Both the position numbers and the translations under genes were made by a program. From JACRDV01 sp024860865 [NCBI: Methanobacteriota archaeon] (lineage in GTDB: Archaea > JACRDV01), in assembly GCA_024860865.1 (NCBI GenBank), contig JACRDV010000141.1:1-12157 (forward strand): DNA of 12,157 bases, given 5' to 3'. The notes beneath the pieces were generated by a model. It was given only the letters and a program-made list of their open reading frames with translations, ran no database searches and was not told the origin of the DNA. Shown here one piece after another: positions 1,038 through 10,900 of this stretch (positions are counted from its first letter, which is position 1; each line of letters begins with the position of its first letter).

Positions 1038-2579
1038 CTAAATAAAAGCGCCAGCATCCTTTTGTTGTTGGTTTGTTTTTTCTTCAAACATTAGGGCTGC
1101 CTTTTCTAAATTGACTCCGTGCTCTGAAGGATAGGAATTTCGCTCTCTAATCCTTACAAAAATGGGGTAATTTACCGCCTCTCCAACAATTAATGCCTCT
1201 CCAATTTTCAATGTAGAAATTGCATCGAGCACGTCACGGGTAATTCCTTCAGAGCTTTTGCCAATGTGTTCAAGATCATATGGATTAGTAACTCGCAATA
1301 TTATGTGGCTGTTACATTGGCTCAAAACAGTTGTTGAAAGCCTTACAGGACGCTGGCTAATTAAACAAAGTGAAGCATAGAACTTCCTGCCTTCACGAGC
1401 AATTGTTTCAATAATCCCTTTTGAAATTGCGCTTCCGCGACCAGCTTCAGGACAAAACTGGTGCGCCTCTTCTATTATTTCGACATAAGGAGGAATTTTT
1501 CCATCGCGCCTCAGATTAAACAATCGCCTAGAAAGATAGTTCACTATTATCTGTTTTTTTCGCAAATTTGTTATGCCACTTAAATCAATTATTGATGCTT
1601 GTCCCGGCTTAGCAATTTGATCTATTGGTGGATTATCATAGCGACCGAATAATCCAATTGTTTCTAAATTTTCAAGCCAACTAACTAAAGTTTCTTTAAT
1701 TTTGATGTTTATTTGCTCATCTTGTACAACCCTGCTCATCAAATCCCTCAAATCAAATGGGCCGCCACCGGAATACATCCGCGCTTTTAACTCTTTAATA
1801 ATTCTTGCCAGCTCACGTTTTTGAGGCGGGGTTATATCCGGTATGAACTCAGCTATTTGCTCAGGGCTCAGATTTGGCACTCCAATCTGAATTTCTTTGC
1901 TCTCAAAGACTTGAGTTCGATCAGAATAATCAGTATATTTTTTATCTTCAACACGTTTTGCAAAACCAGTGTACTCTCCATGGGCATCAATTACGACGAC
2001 TGCAACTCTGCCATGCTCAGGTGTTCGATTGACCAGTTCTTCGATCAACACACTAGCCAAATATGACTTGCCAGCCCCGCTTATCGCAAGAATTGCCACA
2101 TGCTTCTGAAGAAGTCTAGTCAAACTTAGCTTAACTTGTAGACCATGAAAACGGAGTGATCCAATAAACAGCCCCTTCTCTCTATCAAGCCCAATAAAAT
2201 CTTGTAAAGTTCTTTCATCTGCCAAATAAATCTTCTCACCTGGAGAAGGTGGAAAAGTTGCTCTATCTAGACCATCAGAATTGTAAACAGCTAGAGGTCT
2301 CGCCTCTGCAACAGTATACTCCCAACGAGCTGCCGGATAAATCGAAGTTAATGACTTGCCGCTTCGCTCATACTCCCTAACAGATTCTGCACGAGCAAAA
2401 TATTGGTTTGTTTTATATACATCGCTAACTGTTGCAACTAACTTTCCTTCTTTTGTTTTTAGCTCAACAAACTGACCTTTTCTAATAGGAATTACATCAA
2501 CTTCATCATTTATCACAAAGGAAAAAGTCATCGAAGAAGGCCCTTCTGGCGTTGAAATTACTGTCCCGATTTCCTTCAT
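1038..2579 (-). CDS. herA: HerA-type bipolar DNA helicase/translocase ATPase
   Basis: The 513-residue protein has the usual HerA length and layout. An N-terminal beta-barrel (HAS-barrel-like) region covers about residues 1-110. A RecA/FtsK-type ATPase core follows, with Walker A AISGAGKS (about 165-172), Walker B VAVVVIDAHGEY (about 192-203), the VEIIEEAHQF acidic motif, and the LISQRP segment followed by SQCNSHIILRVTNPYDLEHI, typical of HerA/DUF87 ATPases. In archaea HerA forms a hexameric ring that drives double-stranded DNA into the NurA nuclease during end resection, together with Mre11-Rad50 (family knowledge). The start chosen is the ATG at 2579-2577. An in-frame GTG at 2588 lies inside the Shine-Dalgarno site and is less likely. 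The gene follows nurA with five bases between them, so translational coupling is likely. No frameshift or missing motif is seen. Confidence 0.93.
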   Translation of the reverse strand: MKEIGTVISTPEGPSSMTFSFVINDEVDVIPIRKGQFVELKTKEGKLVATVSDVYKTNQYFARAESVREYERSGKSLTSIYPAARWEYTVAEARPLAVYNSDGLDRATFPPSPGEKIYLADERTLQDFIGLDREKGLFIGSLRFHGLQVKLSLTRLLQKHVAILAISGAGKSYLASVLIEELVNRTPEHGRVAVVVIDAHGEYTGFAKRVEDKKYTDYSDRTQVFESKEIQIGVPNLSPEQIAEFIPDITPPQKRELARIIKELKARMYSGGGPFDLRDLMSRVVQDEQINIKIKETLVSWLENLETIGLFGRYDNPPIDQIAKPGQASIIDLSGITNLRKKQIIVNYLSRRLFNLRRDGKIPPYVEIIEEAHQFCPEAGRGSAISKGIIETIAREGRKFYASLCLISQRPVRLSTTVLSQCNSHIILRVTNPYDLEHIGKSSEGITRDVLDAISTLKIGEALIVGEAVNYPIFVRIRERNSYPSEHGVNLEKAALMFEEKTNQQQKDAGAFI

Positions 2580-2583
2580 AGTT

Positions 2584-2590
2584 CTCACCT
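2584..2590 (-). promoter_or_regulatory. Shine-Dalgarno site of herA overlapping the nurA stop
   Basis: AGGTGAG on the minus strand includes the last Arg codon and TGA stop of nurA and stands four bases before the herA ATG. A ribosome finishing nurA is therefore placed on the herA start. Confidence 0.7.
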
Positions 2591-3730
2591 AAAAGGTCTC
2601 AGATTTCGGCGAAGTTCAAACAAAGATATCGCTCTTCCAACTCTATCCATTATCTGCCCATGAACAAATTCTAAATTATCTTCAGAAAGTTTTGCTCGCA
2701 CATCTGCTTCAGTTAAAACAGTTGGAAAAGCATAAGCATCATGATGTTTTGAAAGTGCAAATACAATCGAAGAGACAATATTTGCTGTTTTAGTGAGCTT
2801 ATCAGTGCACAAAAATTCAATCCGCAATGGTCGGTCAAACATAGCTGGTTTCAAGTAAAGAGTAAAAATCTTTGAAGCCCAATCTATGTGAATATCTTGA
2901 AGTGTTGGATGTTTTGCCGGTGCATCTGAATATCTAAAGGCATAGCTTCGCTCTCCAACATCTAGTATATAGTGCAAGAAATGAGTATCGCGAATTTTAT
3001 CAAAAATTTTGATAGATTTGTTGAACGTAACTCGGATTCCTTCATCAATGTGATTTTTCAATAATGATTCTAAAATTTTTCTTCTAAAAATGTCAATAAA
3101 GCGGGTGCCTCTGCTGTCTTCAACTACTCCAACTAAAAGTATCTTATTTTTTTCACATTGTTCATAAAGCTCCTCTAAAAGCTTGATTACCTCGGCATAT
3201 CTGCTTTGAATTTTAGAATTTTTGCTTGGCTTATCAGAATGTTGTGGTGCGATTGACCCATCCAAGAAAATCACATCAGCAGTATATTTTTTGAGAACGT
3301 CGTTTGCAGTTTTTAATTCAGCTTTTTGTCGCTCTAGCGATGTGCTAAGTCCAAAATCTAGATAGGATAACGAGTCAAGGAGCAAAATAGTTGAAGGCTC
3401 TGGCATAGCCTCTGGATAATATTGAACCTTTCTCAAAACCCCTTCTCGATAGTTAAAAATCGCAGCAACAGCCCGAACTAAAATTAGATCGAGACTATGA
3501 TAAGGCCGATTCACAACACCTCCATCGACCCCTATGGCCGTAAGTTGGTCCAAGTTGTGAGGATGAATTGAATAAACAAATTTATCTTCCGAAGTCTCAA
3601 ATTCTAGCCCAAATTTTGGAGGATTTATTTCCTGCTTGAGCGCCCTAACTGCATCGCCTATCTCTCTTAAACTCCATTCAAATTCGAGAATATTCTTTGC
3701 AATTAACTCTAAAACATCTTCAGACGGCAT
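2585..3730 (-). CDS. nurA: NurA-family 5'-3' DNA nuclease
   Basis: The 381-residue protein matches the NurA nuclease layout. The first acidic motif is AIGVDGGVV with Asp69. The second is VIFLDGSI with Asp157. Next comes LLVGVVEDSRGTR with Asp205, and near the C-terminus FPTVLTEADVRA (about 335-346), equivalent to the late active-site segment of the RNase H-like NurA fold. NurA is the Mn2+-dependent nuclease partner of HerA and resects DNA ends to 3' single strands for recombination (family knowledge). The ATG at 3730-3728 is preceded by a GAGGAC Shine-Dalgarno site (3740-3735) with a four-base spacer. It is the first gene of a leftward set, directly upstream of herA, the usual pairing. Nothing appears broken. 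mre11 and rad50 are not adjacent here. Confidence 0.9.
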   Translation of the reverse strand: MPSEDVLELIAKNILEFEWSLREIGDAVRALKQEINPPKFGLEFETSEDKFVYSIHPHNLDQLTAIGVDGGVVNRPYHSLDLILVRAVAAIFNYREGVLRKVQYYPEAMPEPSTILLLDSLSYLDFGLSTSLERQKAELKTANDVLKKYTADVIFLDGSIAPQHSDKPSKNSKIQSRYAEVIKLLEELYEQCEKNKILLVGVVEDSRGTRFIDIFRRKILESLLKNHIDEGIRVTFNKSIKIFDKIRDTHFLHYILDVGERSYAFRYSDAPAKHPTLQDIHIDWASKIFTLYLKPAMFDRPLRIEFLCTDKLTKTANIVSSIVFALSKHHDAYAFPTVLTEADVRAKLSEDNLEFVHGQIMDRVGRAISLFELRRNLRPFR

Positions 3731-3957: not shown

Positions 3958-4011
3958 CTTACGAATCTATAGAGGGCCCGTAGCTCAGCCAGGGAGAGCG
4001 CCTGGCTTTTA

Positions 4012-4295
4012 AAGGGGATGGCGAGAGATGAATCCCGAGTTTATTAAAGATGAAAGAAAATATAGAGCAAGAAGAGTGCATAAAGTATATAGAAAACTTG
4101 CTAAAGAAATATTAGCTAGGGTAAAGACCAGTAAAACACTAAAAAGAGATTTTGATTGGGCATTTTTTCCCACAAGTGTTTGCGATAGAAGAGCAGTAAA
4201 GGGTAATAAAACACATTCAATTGAAAATTTGACAAAAATACAAAATAAATTTCAAGAAATTCTAAAAAATTTTTATCTCGTCACCTCTTAAAGTA
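4012..4295 (+). other. archaeal tRNA intron (BHB type, after position 37) carrying an ORF
   Basis: A canonical bulge-helix-bulge can be read directly. The outer helix is the anticodon stem. The four-pair central helix is CUUU (4006-4009) with AAAG (4290-4293). The 5' bulge is UAA (4010-4012) and the 3' bulge is UAA (4294-4296). The inner helix of 13 positions (4013-4025 with 4277-4289) has a single A-C mismatch and three or four G-U pairs. Cutting each bulge between its second and third base gives an intron of 284 bases and a seven-base anticodon loop, as the archaeal splicing endonuclease (EndA) requires. The length is far above the usual few tens of bases. Nearly all the extra length is an open reading frame. 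I found no box C/D guide-RNA pattern of the kind in some archaeal tRNA-Trp introns: no CUGA is present. Confidence 0.92.
4028..4291 (+). CDS. intron-encoded basic protein of unknown function
   Basis: An 87-codon frame runs from ATG 4028, two bases after the 5' strand of the inner splice helix, to TAA 4289-4291, which itself lies in the BHB. The frame therefore fills the whole intron loop. In AT-rich DNA of this kind several stops would be expected by chance over this length, so it is probably under coding selection, now or recently. The protein has 22 Lys/Arg against 9 Asp/Glu, with a highly basic N-terminal half (KYRARRVHKVYRKLAKEI) that looks helical. A more varied middle follows (DFDWAFFPTSVCDRRAVKG), then a probable C-terminal helix. 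Arginine is coded by AGA or AGG throughout. I recognise no LAGLIDADG, HNH, GIY-YIG or other nuclease motif. A nucleic-acid-binding or mobility role is inference. There is no strong Shine-Dalgarno site; the only G-rich run (4014-4017) is paired in the splice helix. Confidence 0.55.
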   Translation: MNPEFIKDERKYRARRVHKVYRKLAKEILARVKTSKTLKRDFDWAFFPTSVCDRRAVKGNKTHSIENLTKIQNKFQEILKNFYLVTS

Positions 4296-4341
4296 ACCAG
4301 GTGGCCCGGGGTTCAAATCCCCGCGGGCCCGCTCTGATTTT

Positions 4342-4353: not shown

Positions 4354-4599
4354 TTGGCTGTAAAAAAAGTTGAAGTGCTCAAACACCAACTCGTGCCAGA
4401 ACATCGCGTTTTGAACGAAAAGGATGCGAAAAAAGTGCTTGCAAAATTTAATATACATCCAATACAATTGCCAAAAATCCTTGCAAATGACCCGGCTGCA
4501 AAATCTGTCGGCGCTAAACCTGGCGATATACTCGAGATAGCCCGAGAAAGTTCAACAGCTGGAAAAGCGTTAGCATATAGGCTTGTTGTGGAAGATTAG
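4354..4599 (+). CDS. rpoH: RNA polymerase subunit H (Rpb5 C-terminal-type)
   Basis: The 81-residue protein is the length of archaeal RpoH and carries the family core: [17 protein letters not shown] at about 13-29, then [19 protein letters not shown] (about 32-50), then [26 protein letters not shown] to the end. It corresponds to the C-terminal assembly domain of eukaryotic Rpb5 and sits at the polymerase jaw near downstream DNA (family knowledge). The start is TTG; no in-frame ATG is present upstream, and the Shine-Dalgarno site at 4342 fits. It is the first gene of the polymerase operon, 22 bases after tRNA-Lys and 10 bases before rpoB. It has no promoter of its own that I can see in the gap. 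The N-terminal dozen residues are lysine-rich and less conserved. Confidence 0.95.
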
Positions 4600-4605
4600 A
4601 GGTGG
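4598..4605 (+). promoter_or_regulatory. Shine-Dalgarno site of rpoB overlapping the rpoH stop
   Basis: AGAGGTGG begins inside the rpoH TAG stop and stands four bases before the TTG at 4610. It decides for TTG against the in-frame ATG at 4583, which lies within rpoH coding sequence. Confidence 0.7.
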
Positions 4606-4609
4606 TTTT

Positions 4610-7600
4610 TTGAAATTCGGTACCAGCGACACATGGGTTTTAGTTGAAGCATATCTAAAAGAAAAAGAACTGGTAAGTCAACACTTGGATTCTTTTAATG
4701 ATTTTATTGAAAACAGGTTACAAAGAATTATTGACGAAATCGGAGAGATTGATCCAGGATTAGAGCGTTTTAAAGTTAGGCTTGGAGAGATAAGGATTGG
4801 AAAACCTCTCGCCAAAGAAGCCGATGGTGCTGTTAAAGACATCTATCCAATAGAAGCGCGCTTGCGAAATTTGACTTATGCTGCTCCAATTTTTTTAGAA
4901 ATAATCCCAGTTAGAGATGGAGTTGATCAAACACCTGTTGAAGTTCAAATAGGCATGCTTCCAGTCATGCTCAAATCCAAAGTTTGCCATCTGCATGGGT
5001 TATCTAATGAAGACTTAATTAAAGTTGGTGAAGACCCCCTCGAACCTGGCGGTTATTTCATAATTAATGGCTCTGAGCGAGGCCTAGTAACAATCGAGGA
5101 TTTAGCCCCAAACAGAATCATGGTTGAACGAACTGAACGCTATGGTAGAGTAGTTGAAGTCGCAAAAGTCTTTTCTAGGCGACGTGGCTATCGAGTTTTG
5201 GTTGTAGTTGAGCGGAAAAAAGACGGTATTCTAAGCGTATCCTTCCCTTCTGTACCCGGTCAAGTACCTTTTGTTATTTTGATGCGTGCTCTTGGAGTGG
5301 AAAAGGACCAAGATATTGTGAATGCAGTTTCAAGTGACCCAGAAATTGTTCGAGAAATGCTGGACAACATCGAAGCCGCAAGAGAAATTGAAAGTCAAGA
5401 AGATGCTCTCGAATATATTGGAAAGCGTGTTGCTGCAGGTCAAGCCAAAGAATATCGACTAAGGCGCGCTGCTCAAGTTGTTGATACCTATTTGCTCCCT
5501 CACATTGGTATATCAGCTGAAGATAGAATACGCAAAGCATACTATCTTGGAAGAATGACTGAGAGCACAATTGAGCTTGCACTTGGAAAACGCGGTGAAG
5601 ACGATAAAGACCACTATGCGAATAAAAGACTCAGACTCGCAGGGGATTTAATAGAAGATCTATTTCGTGCTGCTTTTCTAAATTTAGTGAGAGATGTTCG
5701 CTATCAACTAGAGCGTTCTTCAATGCGTGGGCGTGAACCTAATATTCAAACTGCAGTGAGAGCTGATGTTTTAACTGAACGATTGTTGCATGCTTTAGCA
5801 ACTGGGAATTGGGTTGGTGGTAGAGCCGGCGTGAGTCAGTTGCTTGACCGTACAAATTATCTTTCAGCTCTTTCTCACTTGCGGCGAGTTATTTCACCAT
5901 TAAGTCGAAGTCAACCTCACTTTGAAGCGAGAGACCTACATCCCACCCAATGGGGCAAAATCTGCCCTGCAGAAACTCCAGAAGGCCCTAATTGCGGTTT
6001 GGTAAAGAACTTAGCACTTTTAGTGAATACCTCAACAGGAGCAGAAGTTGGAACTATTTTAGAAACTCTCCAAGATCTTGGAGTAAAACCTCTACAACAG
6101 GTTGAACGGAAAAAACTAGCTCGTGTTTACCTAGATGGTAATTTAATCGGCATCCATGAAAATCCGGAAAGACTTACAAATCAAATCCGTGAAAAACGCA
6201 GAAAGGGCCAAATTTCAAGCGAAGTTAATGTTGCTTATTATCCTGAAACAAATGAAGTTCTAATTAACGCTGATGCTGGTCGAGCTAGAAGACCCCTTAT
6301 CATTGTTGAAGATGGAAAAACAAAGCTCACAGAAGACCACATCCAAAAATTAAAAAACAGAGAACTTCGCTGGAGTGATTTAATCAGACTTGGAGTCATC
6401 GAATATCTTGATGCTGAAGAAGAAGAGAATACCTTTATCGCACTTTCTGTTGACTCTCTAGCAAAAGAGCATACTCATCTTGAAATTGACCCGGCTGGAA
6501 TTCTTGGAGTTTGTGCCGGAGTTATTCCATATCCAGAACACAACTCTTCACCACGCAATACAATGGGGGCAGGAATGGCAAAGCAAGCGCTTGGACTATA
6601 TGTTGCTAACTTTAAATTTAGAGTTGACACTAGAGCACACCTCTTGCACTATCCTCAAGCACCAATTGTTAAAACAAAAGTGCTTGACGTAATCCATAGC
6701 GACGAACGGCCAGCAGGTCAAAATTTAATTGTCGCTGTAATGCCATTTGAAGGCTATAACATGGAAGATGCTGTAATTCTAAATAAATCCTCGATTGAGC
6801 GAGGGGTGAGTCGTTCAACTTTCTTTAGGACATATGAAGCAGAAGAACGGAGATATCCTGGCGGTCAAGAAGACAAATTTGAAATTCCGCCAAAAGATGT
6901 TCGAGGTTATAGAACTGAGGAAGTTTACAAGTTCTTAGATCAAGATGGATTAGTTTTAGTTGAGTCTGAAGTTGATGCAGGAGAGGTCCTAATAGGCAAA
7001 ACTAGCCCACCAAGATTTCTTGAAGAAGCTGAAGAGTTCGGGATAGTCGCAGAGAATCGCCGAGAAACTTCTGCCACAATTCGCCATGGTGAGCAGGGCG
7101 TCGTGGATCTGGTAATTCTAACGGAGAACTCAGATGGAAATAAACTTGCTAAAATTAGAGTGCGAGATTTAAGAATCCCGGAACTCGGAGATAAGTTTGC
7201 TTCTAGACACGGTCAAAAGGGGGTTGTTGGGTTAATAGTACCGCAAGAAGATATGCCATTTAATGGTGAAGGCATAGTCCCTGATTTAATAATCAATCCT
7301 CATGCAATTCCTTCAAGAATGACTGTTGGACAAGTCTTGGAAATGATAGGCGGTGTTGTCGGATCTACTGAAGGCAGAAGAGTTGATGGAACTGCTTTTA
7401 GTGGGGAAACCGAAAAAGATCTTAGAGAAGCGCTGAGAAAAGCTGGATTTAAACATAATGGAAAGACTATCTTTTACAATGGTACGAGTGGACAGATAAT
7501 CGATGCTGAAATTTTTGTTGGAATTTCATATTACCAAAAACTCCACCATATGGTTAGTGGAAAGCTTCATGCTCGCTCACGTGGTCCAGTTCAAGTCCTA

Positions 7601-7924
7601 ACTCGACAACCGACTGAAGGCCGTGCCAGAGAAGGTGGATTGCGATTTGGTGAAATGGAGCGAGATTGCTTAATTAGCCATGGTGTAGCATTAGTGCTAA
7701 AAGAAAGATTGCTTGATGAATCCGATAAATACCAAGTTCTTGTATGTTCAAAATGTGGGATGGTTGCAGTTCGTGATGAAGCTCGTGGCAGGGATTATTG
7801 CTCAGTTTGTGGCGATGAGAGCGAAATCTATTCTGTAGAAATGTCATATGCATTCAAATTGCTTTTAGATGAGCTCAAATCGCTATGCATTGCTCCGCGG
7901 CTTAGATTGCAAGATATTGTTTGA
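4610..7924 (+). CDS. rpoB: DNA-directed RNA polymerase subunit B (unsplit)
   Basis: The 1104-residue protein is a full, fused archaeal B subunit, half of the polymerase cleft and active centre. Family signatures appear in order. The N-terminal protrusion and lobe contain [34 protein letters not shown] starts at about residue 444 (fork region). [15 protein letters not shown] follows, then [17 protein letters not shown] at about 855-871 (hybrid-binding domain) and [20 protein letters not shown]. The C-terminal clamp has a zinc site with Cys1046, Cys1049, Cys1064 and Cys1067, ending in [17 protein letters not shown]. No key motif is missing. I take TTG 4610 as the start because of the Shine-Dalgarno site overlapping the rpoH stop. 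The unsplit gene is typical of Thermococcales, TACK archaea, Thermoplasmatales and many DPANN archaea, and excludes lineages with a separate B' and B''. Its stop overlaps the rpoA1 ribosome site. Confidence 0.97.
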
Positions 7925-7934: not shown

Positions 7935-10900
7935 GTGCCAATCGTAGGTGCTCCGAAAAGAATATCAAAAATTGATTTTGGAGTGCTCTCGCCCGACGAA
8001 ATCAGAAAGATGTCTGTCATCAAAATTATAACTGCTGATACATACGATGAAGACGGTTACCCTATTGAAAGAGGACTGATGGATCCAAAGCTTGGCGTCA
8101 TAGATCCTGGCCTCCGCTGCAAAACCTGCGGGGGACGAGTTGGCGAATGTCCCGGCCACTTTGGGCATATTGAGCTTGCAGCACCAGTTATACATGCTGG
8201 ATATGCAAAGCAAATCTATGAAATGCTTAGAGGCACTTGTCATGCTTGCAATAAAATTCTGTTATCTGGAAAACAAACTGAACATTTTAAGAAAACAATG
8301 GAAGAAGCTGAAAAAAATGGAGAGGATAAGTGGGTTATTTTGGATAAAATCTTACAAACTACCAGAAAAGCAAAAAAGTGCTTAAAATGCGGAACCGCAC
8401 AAAAAGAGATGAAATTTGAAAAACCGACTACTTTAATTGAAGATGGACATAGATTAACGCCATCTGATATTCGAGACCGTCTAGAAAAAATCCCGAACGA
8501 AGACGCCCAGTTATTAGGAATTGATACTAAAGTTGCGCGCCCAGAATGGATGGTTTTAACTGTTTTAACGGTTCCACCAGTGACTGTGCGTCCTTCTATC
8601 ACTTTAGAAACGGGAGAACGATCTGAAGATGATTTAACCCATAAGCTAGTTGATATCCTTAGAATTAATCAACGTTTGCGAGAAAACAGAGAGGCAGGAG
8701 CCCCTCAACTTATTATTGAGGACTTATGGGAATTACTACAATATCACATTACAACATATTTTGATAACGAAGTTTCTGGTGTTCCACCGGCAAGACACAG
8801 GTCTGGTCGCCCACTTAGAACACTTGCTCAGCGCTTAAAAGGAAAAGAAGGGAGGTTTAGGAGCAATCTTTCAGGTAAACGTGTTAACTTTTCTGCGAGA
8901 ACTGTCATATCTCCTGACCCAAATATCAGCATAAACGAAGTTGGCGTGCCTGAAGTAGCTGCAAAAGAACTCACTGTTCCTGAAAAAGTTACATCCCGCA
9001 ATATTGAGGCGCTAAAACAACTGATAATAAAGGGTCCAAATGTACACCCCGGGGCAAACTATGTTTTACGCCCAGATGATAGAAGAATTAAGATTACTGA
9101 TGAAAGTAAAGATAAAATTATTGCGGAATTGGCTCCGGGCTACACTGTTGAAAGGCATCTTGCAAATGGAGATCTTGTTCTTTTTAACAGGCAACCATCG
9201 CTTCATCGGATGTCAATAATGGCTCATGAAGTAAAAATCATGCCATATAAAACTTTTAGGCTAAACCTTTGCGTATGCGTAGCCCCTGAAACAAAACTAA
9301 CACTCGACGGATTTCAAAGACCTATAGAGCAACTTAAAAATTGTTGGAAGGAGTCTCAAGTAATAACCTATAAAAACAATCAAAAGATTTTTAAAACGTC
9401 TTTATCAGCTTTTTGGAGCTTGAAGCCAAAAGATTATGGCAAACGCATACTTAAGATAAATACAAACAACGAGAGAGAATTAATAGCAACTGAAGATCAT
9501 CCAATCTATACGATAAGGGGTTTGGTAAAAGCTGGTGATATAAAAATTGGTGATAGGGTTATCGTTTACCCAATAGAATTCCCTGAGTATGAAGATGTAG
9601 AAAAGGTAATTCTAACTGAAAATGATATAGTTAAAAGTGCTACAAAACAAACTTATGTTAAACATCTAATAAGTGAATTGAAAAAAAGAAATCTACTACC
9701 ACTTGCTCTATTAAACAACCCGAAAGCTTTGATATTAACTAAGTTACTTGGTCATATTTTTGGAGATGGGGCATTAATTTTGAAAGATGACGTAGGAAGA
9801 GCTGTATTCAGAAGTGATGTTGAGGATTTGGAAGATATACAAAATGATATTAGAATGCTTGGATTTGAGCCTGGTGAGATAAAAACAAGAGAATATAATG
9901 CTGAAATAACTACATACGAGAGCAAGAAATTAAAAGTTAGTTCTGTTGGAAGCAGTTTTGAAGTAAGAAACAAAGCATTTGCTACTTTGATGAAGGCTCT
10001 TGGTGCACCAAATGGGGATAAAGTTTTGTTAGATTATAAGGTTCCAAAATGGATTTTGGAATCGCCAAAATACGTTAAGAAAGTATTTTTGGCCGCATAT
10101 TTTGGTTCTGAATTGACAATACCTGCCCTAAGGAAAAATTGCAAAAAACTGTTCAGGGAACTTGTGTTTAAGATAAGTAAGATAGAAGATAAAATAAATT
10201 ATGCTGATGACTTTATTAAAGGTATCGAATTCTTGCTAAAAGAATTTGGCATATCCATATCGTCAATCTCAAGAGAAAATGGAAATATTAGAAAAGATGG
10301 TAAAAAGACAAAAATAACAATAGTAGCACTTTGCTCAGACTTAGAATCTGCTATCAATTTCTTTGGGAAAATAGGTTACATATACAATAGGAAAGCAGAT
10401 TCTATCGCAAGACTAGCATATCAATATCTGAAATTTAAGAAGGAAGAACTTAAAAAACGTAAGAAGATTCTATCTGACATAAAGGTTTGGAATAGAAAAA
10501 GTGAAAGCTTACTTTCTATAGCTAGAAGGAATGGTATAAGCGTAAGCACATTATATAATTGGAGAAGTAGGGGTGTTAACGAAGAATCACTTAACACATC
10601 GCCAGATTTCCTTGATTTTGATGAATGGTTAAAAACTAATTGCTATGATGTTAAAAGTGGGCTTGTAATTGAGAAAGTGATTAGTGTTAAAGATACTTTT
10701 ACACCATATGTTTATGATATAACTACAACTGCTGACACACATAATTTTATTGCTAATGGCTTTCTGACTGGAAACTGCCCTCCCTATAATGCAGACTTCG
10801 ATGGGGACGAAATGAACCTACATGTAATGCAAGGTGAAGAAGCGCAAGCTGAAGCACGAATTTTAATGCGTGTTCAAGAACAAATTCTTTCACCGCGCTT

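Follow-up and report, generated by a model that had tools for sequence, protein, structure and literature searches.

A tRNA-Lys(UUU) gene upstream of archaeal rpoB with an exceptionally long bulge-helix-bulge intron and an 87-codon open reading frame of unproven coding status

The window analysed here, the whole 12,157-nucleotide stretch of contig JACRDV010000141.1 from the genome of a Methanobacteriota archaeon (JACRDV01 sp024860865, GCA_024860865.1), contains on its forward strand a tRNA-Lys(UUU) gene at positions 3974-4331 (total span 358 nt), which is split between tRNA positions 37 and 38 by an intron of 284 nt. The intron is real and of exceptional length, in a genome of many tRNA introns, and the open reading frame (ORF) occupying nearly all of it is not yet a gene. 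On balance it seems somewhat probable that this is an ordinary archaeal protein-spliced tRNA intron with an enlarged hairpin loop, in which the ORF is most likely incidental. The features of the locus are as follows.

3974-4011, forward strand: exon 1 of tRNA-Lys(UUU), positions 1-37, stems pairing with exon 2
4006-4012, forward strand: 5' side of the bulge-helix-bulge (BHB) in the predicted fold, central helix CUUU 4006-4009 and 5' bulge UA(A) 4010-4012
4012-4295, forward strand: intron at 37/38, 284 nt, 30% G+C, placed by exon joining and fold
4012-4026, forward strand: 5' strand of the intron-closing stem in the minimum-energy fold, AAGGGG(A)UGGCGAGA
4028-4291, forward strand: ATG-TAA ORF from the ORF list, 87 codons plus TAA, coding status unproven
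4276-4296, forward strand: 3' side of the BHB in the predicted fold, intron-closing stem 4276-4289, AAAG 4290-4293 and bulge UAA 4294-4296
4296-4331, forward strand: exon 2 of tRNA-Lys(UUU), positions 38-73, without encoded CCA
4354-4599, forward strand: rpoH, Rpb5 C-terminal domain (Pfam PF01191), directly downstream of tRNA-Lys
4583-7924, forward strand: rpoB, ORF as listed, true start probably later, at about 4616

Exon 1 (GGGCCCG TA GCTC AGCCAGGGA GAGC G CCTGG CTTTTA) supplies the acceptor strand GGGCCCG, the D arm, the 5' strand of the anticodon stem and CTTTTA, and is completed by exon 2 (A CCAGG TGGCC CGGGG TTCAAAT CCCCG CGGGCCC G). The joined exons give a complete 74-nt tRNA with the anticodon UUU, in which acceptor, D, anticodon and T stems are all paired, and this copy shows no decay. 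An earlier note on this DNA had described an intact tRNA-Lys(UUU) with an intron of 284 bases after position 37, almost filled by a single 87-codon frame; this description holds, and its coordinates 3974-4331 are exact. Since T-A-A is present at both junctions, and a cut shifted by 1-2 bases leads to an identical tRNA, the exact cut is ambiguous by 1-2 nt while the length of 284 nt is fixed. At 30.3%, the G+C content of the intron is close to that of the adjacent intergenic DNA (30.9%) and near that of the intein in the window (32.3%), and it is lower than in rpoB (41.6%). A split, permuted or trans-spliced tRNA is ruled out, as the exons lie in order and 284 nt apart, and so is a group I intron, as no Rfam intron family matched at E up to 1.

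In the predicted fold the junction is a near-canonical BHB. CCUGG/CCAGG is followed by the 4-bp central helix CUUU:AAAG, with the 3' splice site in the UAA bulge and the 5' splice site in the UA(A) bulge, and the intron is closed by a stem of 14 pairs with one base bulged. The central helix and the 3-nt 3' bulge are canonical and agree with the 'textbook' BHB of the earlier note; in the minimum-energy fold, however, A4012 pairs with U4289 and leaves a 5' bulge of 2 nt, which makes that wording slightly too strong. The strict register with a 3-nt 5' bulge has four central and five outer pairs, two of them G-U, and a strict register (four central and at least five outer pairs) was reached by only 59 of 200,000 shuffled introns with the exons fixed. 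It is this register test on which we rely, and not the longest ungapped helix between the intron ends, which alone is not significant (8 bp in 721 of 5000 shuffles). The genome contains one match to the splicing endonuclease (Pfam PF01974, E 4.7e-31), in an ORF of 182 amino acids on contig C51.

From these features we infer a conventional splicing route. The gene would be transcribed as a pre-tRNA, the splicing endonuclease would cut at the two bulges, an RNA ligase would join the halves into the mature tRNA and the 284-nt intron would be released, probably as a circle. As the closing stem (4012-4026 with 4276-4289) would bring the splice sites together, splicing should depend little on loop length. 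Lying in an A-rich, stop-poor spacer, the 87-codon ORF would most likely be incidental or, at best, a degraded remnant. Position, BHB and closing stem are shared with the canonical archaeal introns at 37/38, but these are given as 11-129 nt in the available part of a 2014 review (PMC4090602), whereas the present intron is ORF-filled and, as the earlier note had correctly remarked, far longer than usual, extending a range of at most 129 nt to 284 nt. The accessible text of a survey of 217 archaeal genomes counts 1,533 canonical and 673 non-canonical tRNA introns (PMC8450103; the word 'homing' is absent from this paper), and 'unusually long introns' are mentioned for Aeropyrum pernix tRNAs in PMC4307357.

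The tRNA-Lys gene is a genuine, conserved member of the rpoB neighbourhood. Related loci were fetched via rpoB/RpoB, and the counts given here refer to the best 80 of 589 related stretches (L059-L138). Among the matches listed, the records closest to the window's RpoB carry the titles Candidatus Pyrohabitans (66%) and Hydrothermarchaeota (65%), next to which come Hodarchaeaceae (65%) and Hadesarchaea and Jordarchaeia records (63%). A tRNA-Lys(UUU) signature is present upstream of rpoB in 56 of the 80 loci and lacking in the other 24, in some of which the stretch before rpoB is short. Of the 56 genes, 49 could be delimited by ARAGORN, at 74-136 nt, against 358 nt in the window: 32 span 74-78 nt, without an intron, and 17 span 93-136 nt. 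In the remaining seven, exon 1 is present and exon 2 was placed by eye no more than about 150 nt away; even with introns allowed, ARAGORN does not resolve their introns. The gene is intronless in the Pyrohabitans and Hydrothermarchaeota loci (L059, L060), in L061 (Hodarchaeaceae) and in the Hadesarchaea/Hadarchaeum loci L062, L064, L066 and L118. Introns at 37/38 were delimited by the tRNA-Lys finder in L065 (45 nt), L070 (37 nt), L110 and L117 (16 nt each) and, with relaxed settings, in L100 (30 nt); in the remaining intron-bearing records of Lokiarchaeota, Thorarchaeota and Odinarchaeia the insertion often seems to lie elsewhere. Low-scoring, chance-looking finder matches in L104 and L078 were left uncounted. 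The comparison with related genomes which the earlier note had suggested shows a conserved gene with a few short introns at the same site, but no relative of the 284-nt insertion. In the same 80 loci, tRNA-Asp often precedes tRNA-Lys(UUU) upstream of rpoB in many archaeal lineages. In the window, adjacent HerA and NurA genes (1038-3730, minus strand) are divergent from the tRNA-rpo operon.

The tRNA set of this genome is intron-rich, with some introns at non-canonical positions, and its other delimitable tRNA genes span 72 to about 175 nt (partly by eye). A second long case in the same genome is tRNA-Tyr(GUA) (contig C147:944-1256, minus strand, L181), with about 239 nt inserted in the T loop. 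By eye, all four stems can be made out in the 74-mer formed by joining, although its minimum-energy fold is not a cloverleaf; the two ends of the intron form the pairing TTCAAGAGG/CCTCTTGAA. The longest forward frame of this intron (50 codons tested, without ATG) scores only z 0.88 in the codon test described below, and the tRNA-Tyr case indicates that a giant tRNA intron without a convincing gene is possible in this genome. A LAGLIDADG remnant in this frame ('...GTILYWCKGTRKGKYPEANRVRVKHEIAIKAFLKF', reminiscent of LAGLIDADG motif 1) was considered and dropped as unproven. A LAGLIDADG consensus matched in 4 of 197 genomes, and of the four proteins behind these matches two match Pfam LAGLIDADG_3, whereas for the other two Pfam gave nothing at E up to 0.1. 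Against an alignment of these four LAGLIDADG-like proteins, the tRNA-Tyr frame reached a probability of 0.06% (hhalign), and further searches with it gave nothing significant (over 149 genomes, the lowest per-genome E was 0.019).

Genes of this kind may be overlooked. The tRNA-Lys gene was missed by ARAGORN as first run (the default for the tool used) and found with introns allowed, the anticodon being read as TTA; with Rfam RF00005 it scores 13.9 bits, which is below the cut-off. Genomes of lone lineages may thus seem to lack tRNAs that they have.

The ORF is real as a sequence feature, and none of the results show a working or mobile gene. It starts in the intron loop and ends inside the 3' strand of the BHB, and its frame is closed on the 5' side by TAA at 4010-4012. 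An open run of this length (92 codons) is rare by chance, with P 0.00085 for the sense strand and 0.0105 for both strands (20,000 dinucleotide shuffles). In a test trained on five genes of the window, the ORF has a weak whole codon score (P 0.09), and its synonymous codon choice does not differ from the null (P 0.49). Three-base periodicity of base composition is weak as well (P 0.04), and no purine excess is present at the first codon positions of the ORF (P 0.25). For a further codon test, 73 ORFs of this genome, each at least 220 amino acids long, served as training set; here the ORF has z 1.18 (P 0.12), as against z 2.5-4.0 for six known or presumed gene segments of the window; nurA is in both the training set and these six segments. 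Eight of nine presumed spurious ORFs lie between -1.4 and 1.75, two of them exceeding the Lys ORF, and the ninth (208-429), which is antisense to a long membrane-protein-like open frame, reaches z 3.9, so that the test is not clean. The codon content of the Lys ORF sits with the spurious ORFs and is not clearly gene-like. A gene that is young or of foreign origin may, however, differ from its host in codon usage. The only Shine-Dalgarno-like bases seen by eye are AGGGG at 4013-4017. Overall, we give about one chance in three to the ORF being translated, as whatever kind of gene.

Searches for relatives gave the following results. No family was matched in Pfam, NCBIfam or PHROGs at E up to 5, the best E values were 0.52 against PDB sequences and 7 and 5 against phages and plasmids, and none of the pattern stretches was confirmed among viral contigs (9) or contigs of GTDB species (110), in a scan which detects close relatives only. 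The best E was 0.06 in 61 archaeal genomes (the window itself aside) and 0.0033 per genome in 394 archaeal genomes, the latter being at chance level over that number. As no other member of the phylum is among the genomes compared, missing relatives are weak evidence. An AlphaFold2 model made without an alignment is all-helical but poor (pLDDT 61.9, pTM 0.36), and Foldseek with this model returned one match, at E 8.1.

The best-surviving alternative, which we consider rather unlikely, is that the ORF encodes a small basic protein peculiar to this lineage (an orphan), with either the pre-tRNA or the excised intron circle as its message and a role unrelated to homing. The improbable open length on the sense strand, the periodicity and the helical model, poor as it is, are consistent with such a protein. 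A codon content like that of spurious ORFs, a synonymous codon signal at the null level, the failure to find relatives and the position of AGGGG, which is predicted to be buried in the intron stem, argue against it. The first three also speak for the favoured reading, an enlarged ordinary intron with a non-coding ORF, as does the G+C content of the intron.

The earlier note had gone further and suggested that this may be a distinct class of mobile tRNA intron, which was not upheld. We regard it as improbable that the intron is mobile and carries a small or degenerate homing endonuclease, like the BHB introns of archaeal rRNA genes. The anatomy, with an ORF in the loop of what is otherwise a short hairpin intron, does fit such a reading. 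So do the many LAGLIDADG domains and tRNA introns of the genome and the stretch 'GNKTHSIENL' in the ORF, which is reminiscent of HNH homing enzymes. Pfam, though, gave no match, and comparison of the ORF with the four LAGLIDADG-like archaeal proteins (hhalign) gave a probability of 0.08%, i.e. no relation; the ORF matched no known endonuclease family in Pfam, NCBIfam, PHROGs or hhalign comparisons and, with 87 amino acids, would be short for one. Neither its codon content, which is not clearly gene-like, nor the other giant intron of the genome, that of tRNA-Tyr without a convincing ORF, speaks for mobility. A second copy of the intron was not found in the genome (the 16 other DNA matches are at E 0.06 or worse), nor did the genomes searched, which include no other phylum member, contain relatives of the intron or ORF, in a patchy distribution or any other.

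The LAGLIDADG domains themselves appear to have another origin. LAGLIDADG_3 (PF14528) has 17 matches in the genome, 14 of them over the cut-off, and they lie in open frames of 527-1689 amino acids, which suggests inteins and not tRNA introns. The genome is probably intein-rich. The window itself contains an intein of about 500 amino acids in RpoA1 (9276-10775), directly before the CPPYNADFDGDEM active-site stretch; this intein is not one of the 17 LAGLIDADG_3 matches. Homing is thus a possibility and not a result.

In the available parts of PMC4496867 and PMC6125680, endonuclease-bearing introns are placed in rRNA genes. BHB junctions and an internal ORF are common to the Lys intron and the rRNA-gene introns with LAGLIDADG endonucleases (excerpts of PMC4496867), but here the host is a tRNA, the ORF has only 87 codons and no endonuclease was detected. 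No archaeal tRNA intron with an ORF or homing endonuclease was found in the open-licence literature, as far as its accessible text goes and with subscription papers mostly outside the scope; the accessible sections of PMC11782384, PMC7994747, PMC7714728, PMC4033280 and PMC4390854 describe no ORF- or endonuclease-bearing case, and PMC3218864 does not mention terms for ORF- or homing-type tRNA introns. Thermoproteales are rich in tRNA introns and show intron transposition (Fujishima 2010, as cited in the available portions of PMC4090602 and PMC4033280). The present genome is similar in that many of its tRNAs have introns, some at non-canonical positions, and differs in that its RpoB is nearest to Pyrohabitans and Hydrothermarchaeota among the matches listed and the Lys intron has no genomic copies. 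The closest precedent found for involvement of a mobile element is the tRNA intron gain in Caldiarchaeum, which PMC3293823 links to such an element.

It is highly unlikely that the intron holds a structured non-coding RNA, for instance a box C/D guide of the type that some tRNA-Trp introns contain. A precedent in archaeal tRNA-Trp is described in the accessible part of PMC4090602, and the intron in Haloferax is given as 103 nt in that of PMC7714728. These introns, too, are long, and the splicing endonuclease removes them. Compared with shuffled sequences, the 358-nt transcript has a better fold (z -3.05), but the tRNA and BHB stems are included in this score, the Lys intron contains neither CTGA (D box) nor RTGATGA (C box), and a T-arm-like tmRNA fragment in exon 2 is all that Rfam matches in the window at E up to 1. 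An assembly artefact or a dead tRNA, conceivable in a fragmented metagenome-assembled genome (MAG) of 160 contigs, is hardly credible. The two exons form their stems with each other, both junctions are part of the BHB, other archaea likewise have the gene upstream of rpo genes, and no second copy was seen in the loci examined.

This last result also bears on the earlier note, according to which a second intact tRNA-Lys(UUU) together with decay of the present one would refute its reading. Neither was seen: across 124 loci of this genome the only other finder match, in L178, is AT-rich and chance-looking. The scan covered 359,056 bases (overlaps included) of 1,544,231 in a MAG that is 92% complete, which makes a further copy possible.

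Should the ORF prove to be translated, protein genes would be known from introns of tRNA as well as of rRNA, and a source of mobile tRNA introns would become testable. That this is the first BHB tRNA intron with a working protein, a small, basic, all-helical one of a new family which is produced from pre-tRNA or intron circle and aids intron spread or splicing, is a bold suggestion and a very improbable one.

Several other tRNA loci of the genome deserve mention. A 3' tRNA fragment lies about 2.2 kb downstream of an intact tRNA-Gly (C77:1685-1803 and 4021; L248, L152), and another about 1 kb downstream of an intact tRNA-Arg (C16 near 18838, 19837-19952; L249). Among the ORFs listed, no integrase is evident by eye between these tRNAs and their fragments, which resemble the scars of elements integrated into tRNA genes. 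At least two tRNA genes seem by eye to have more than one intron. One is on contig C11, near 3850. The other, on contig C119 (L250, from about 1846), spans about 190 nt and looks like initiator tRNA-Met; by eye it appears to contain several introns, one of them near the border of acceptor and D arm.
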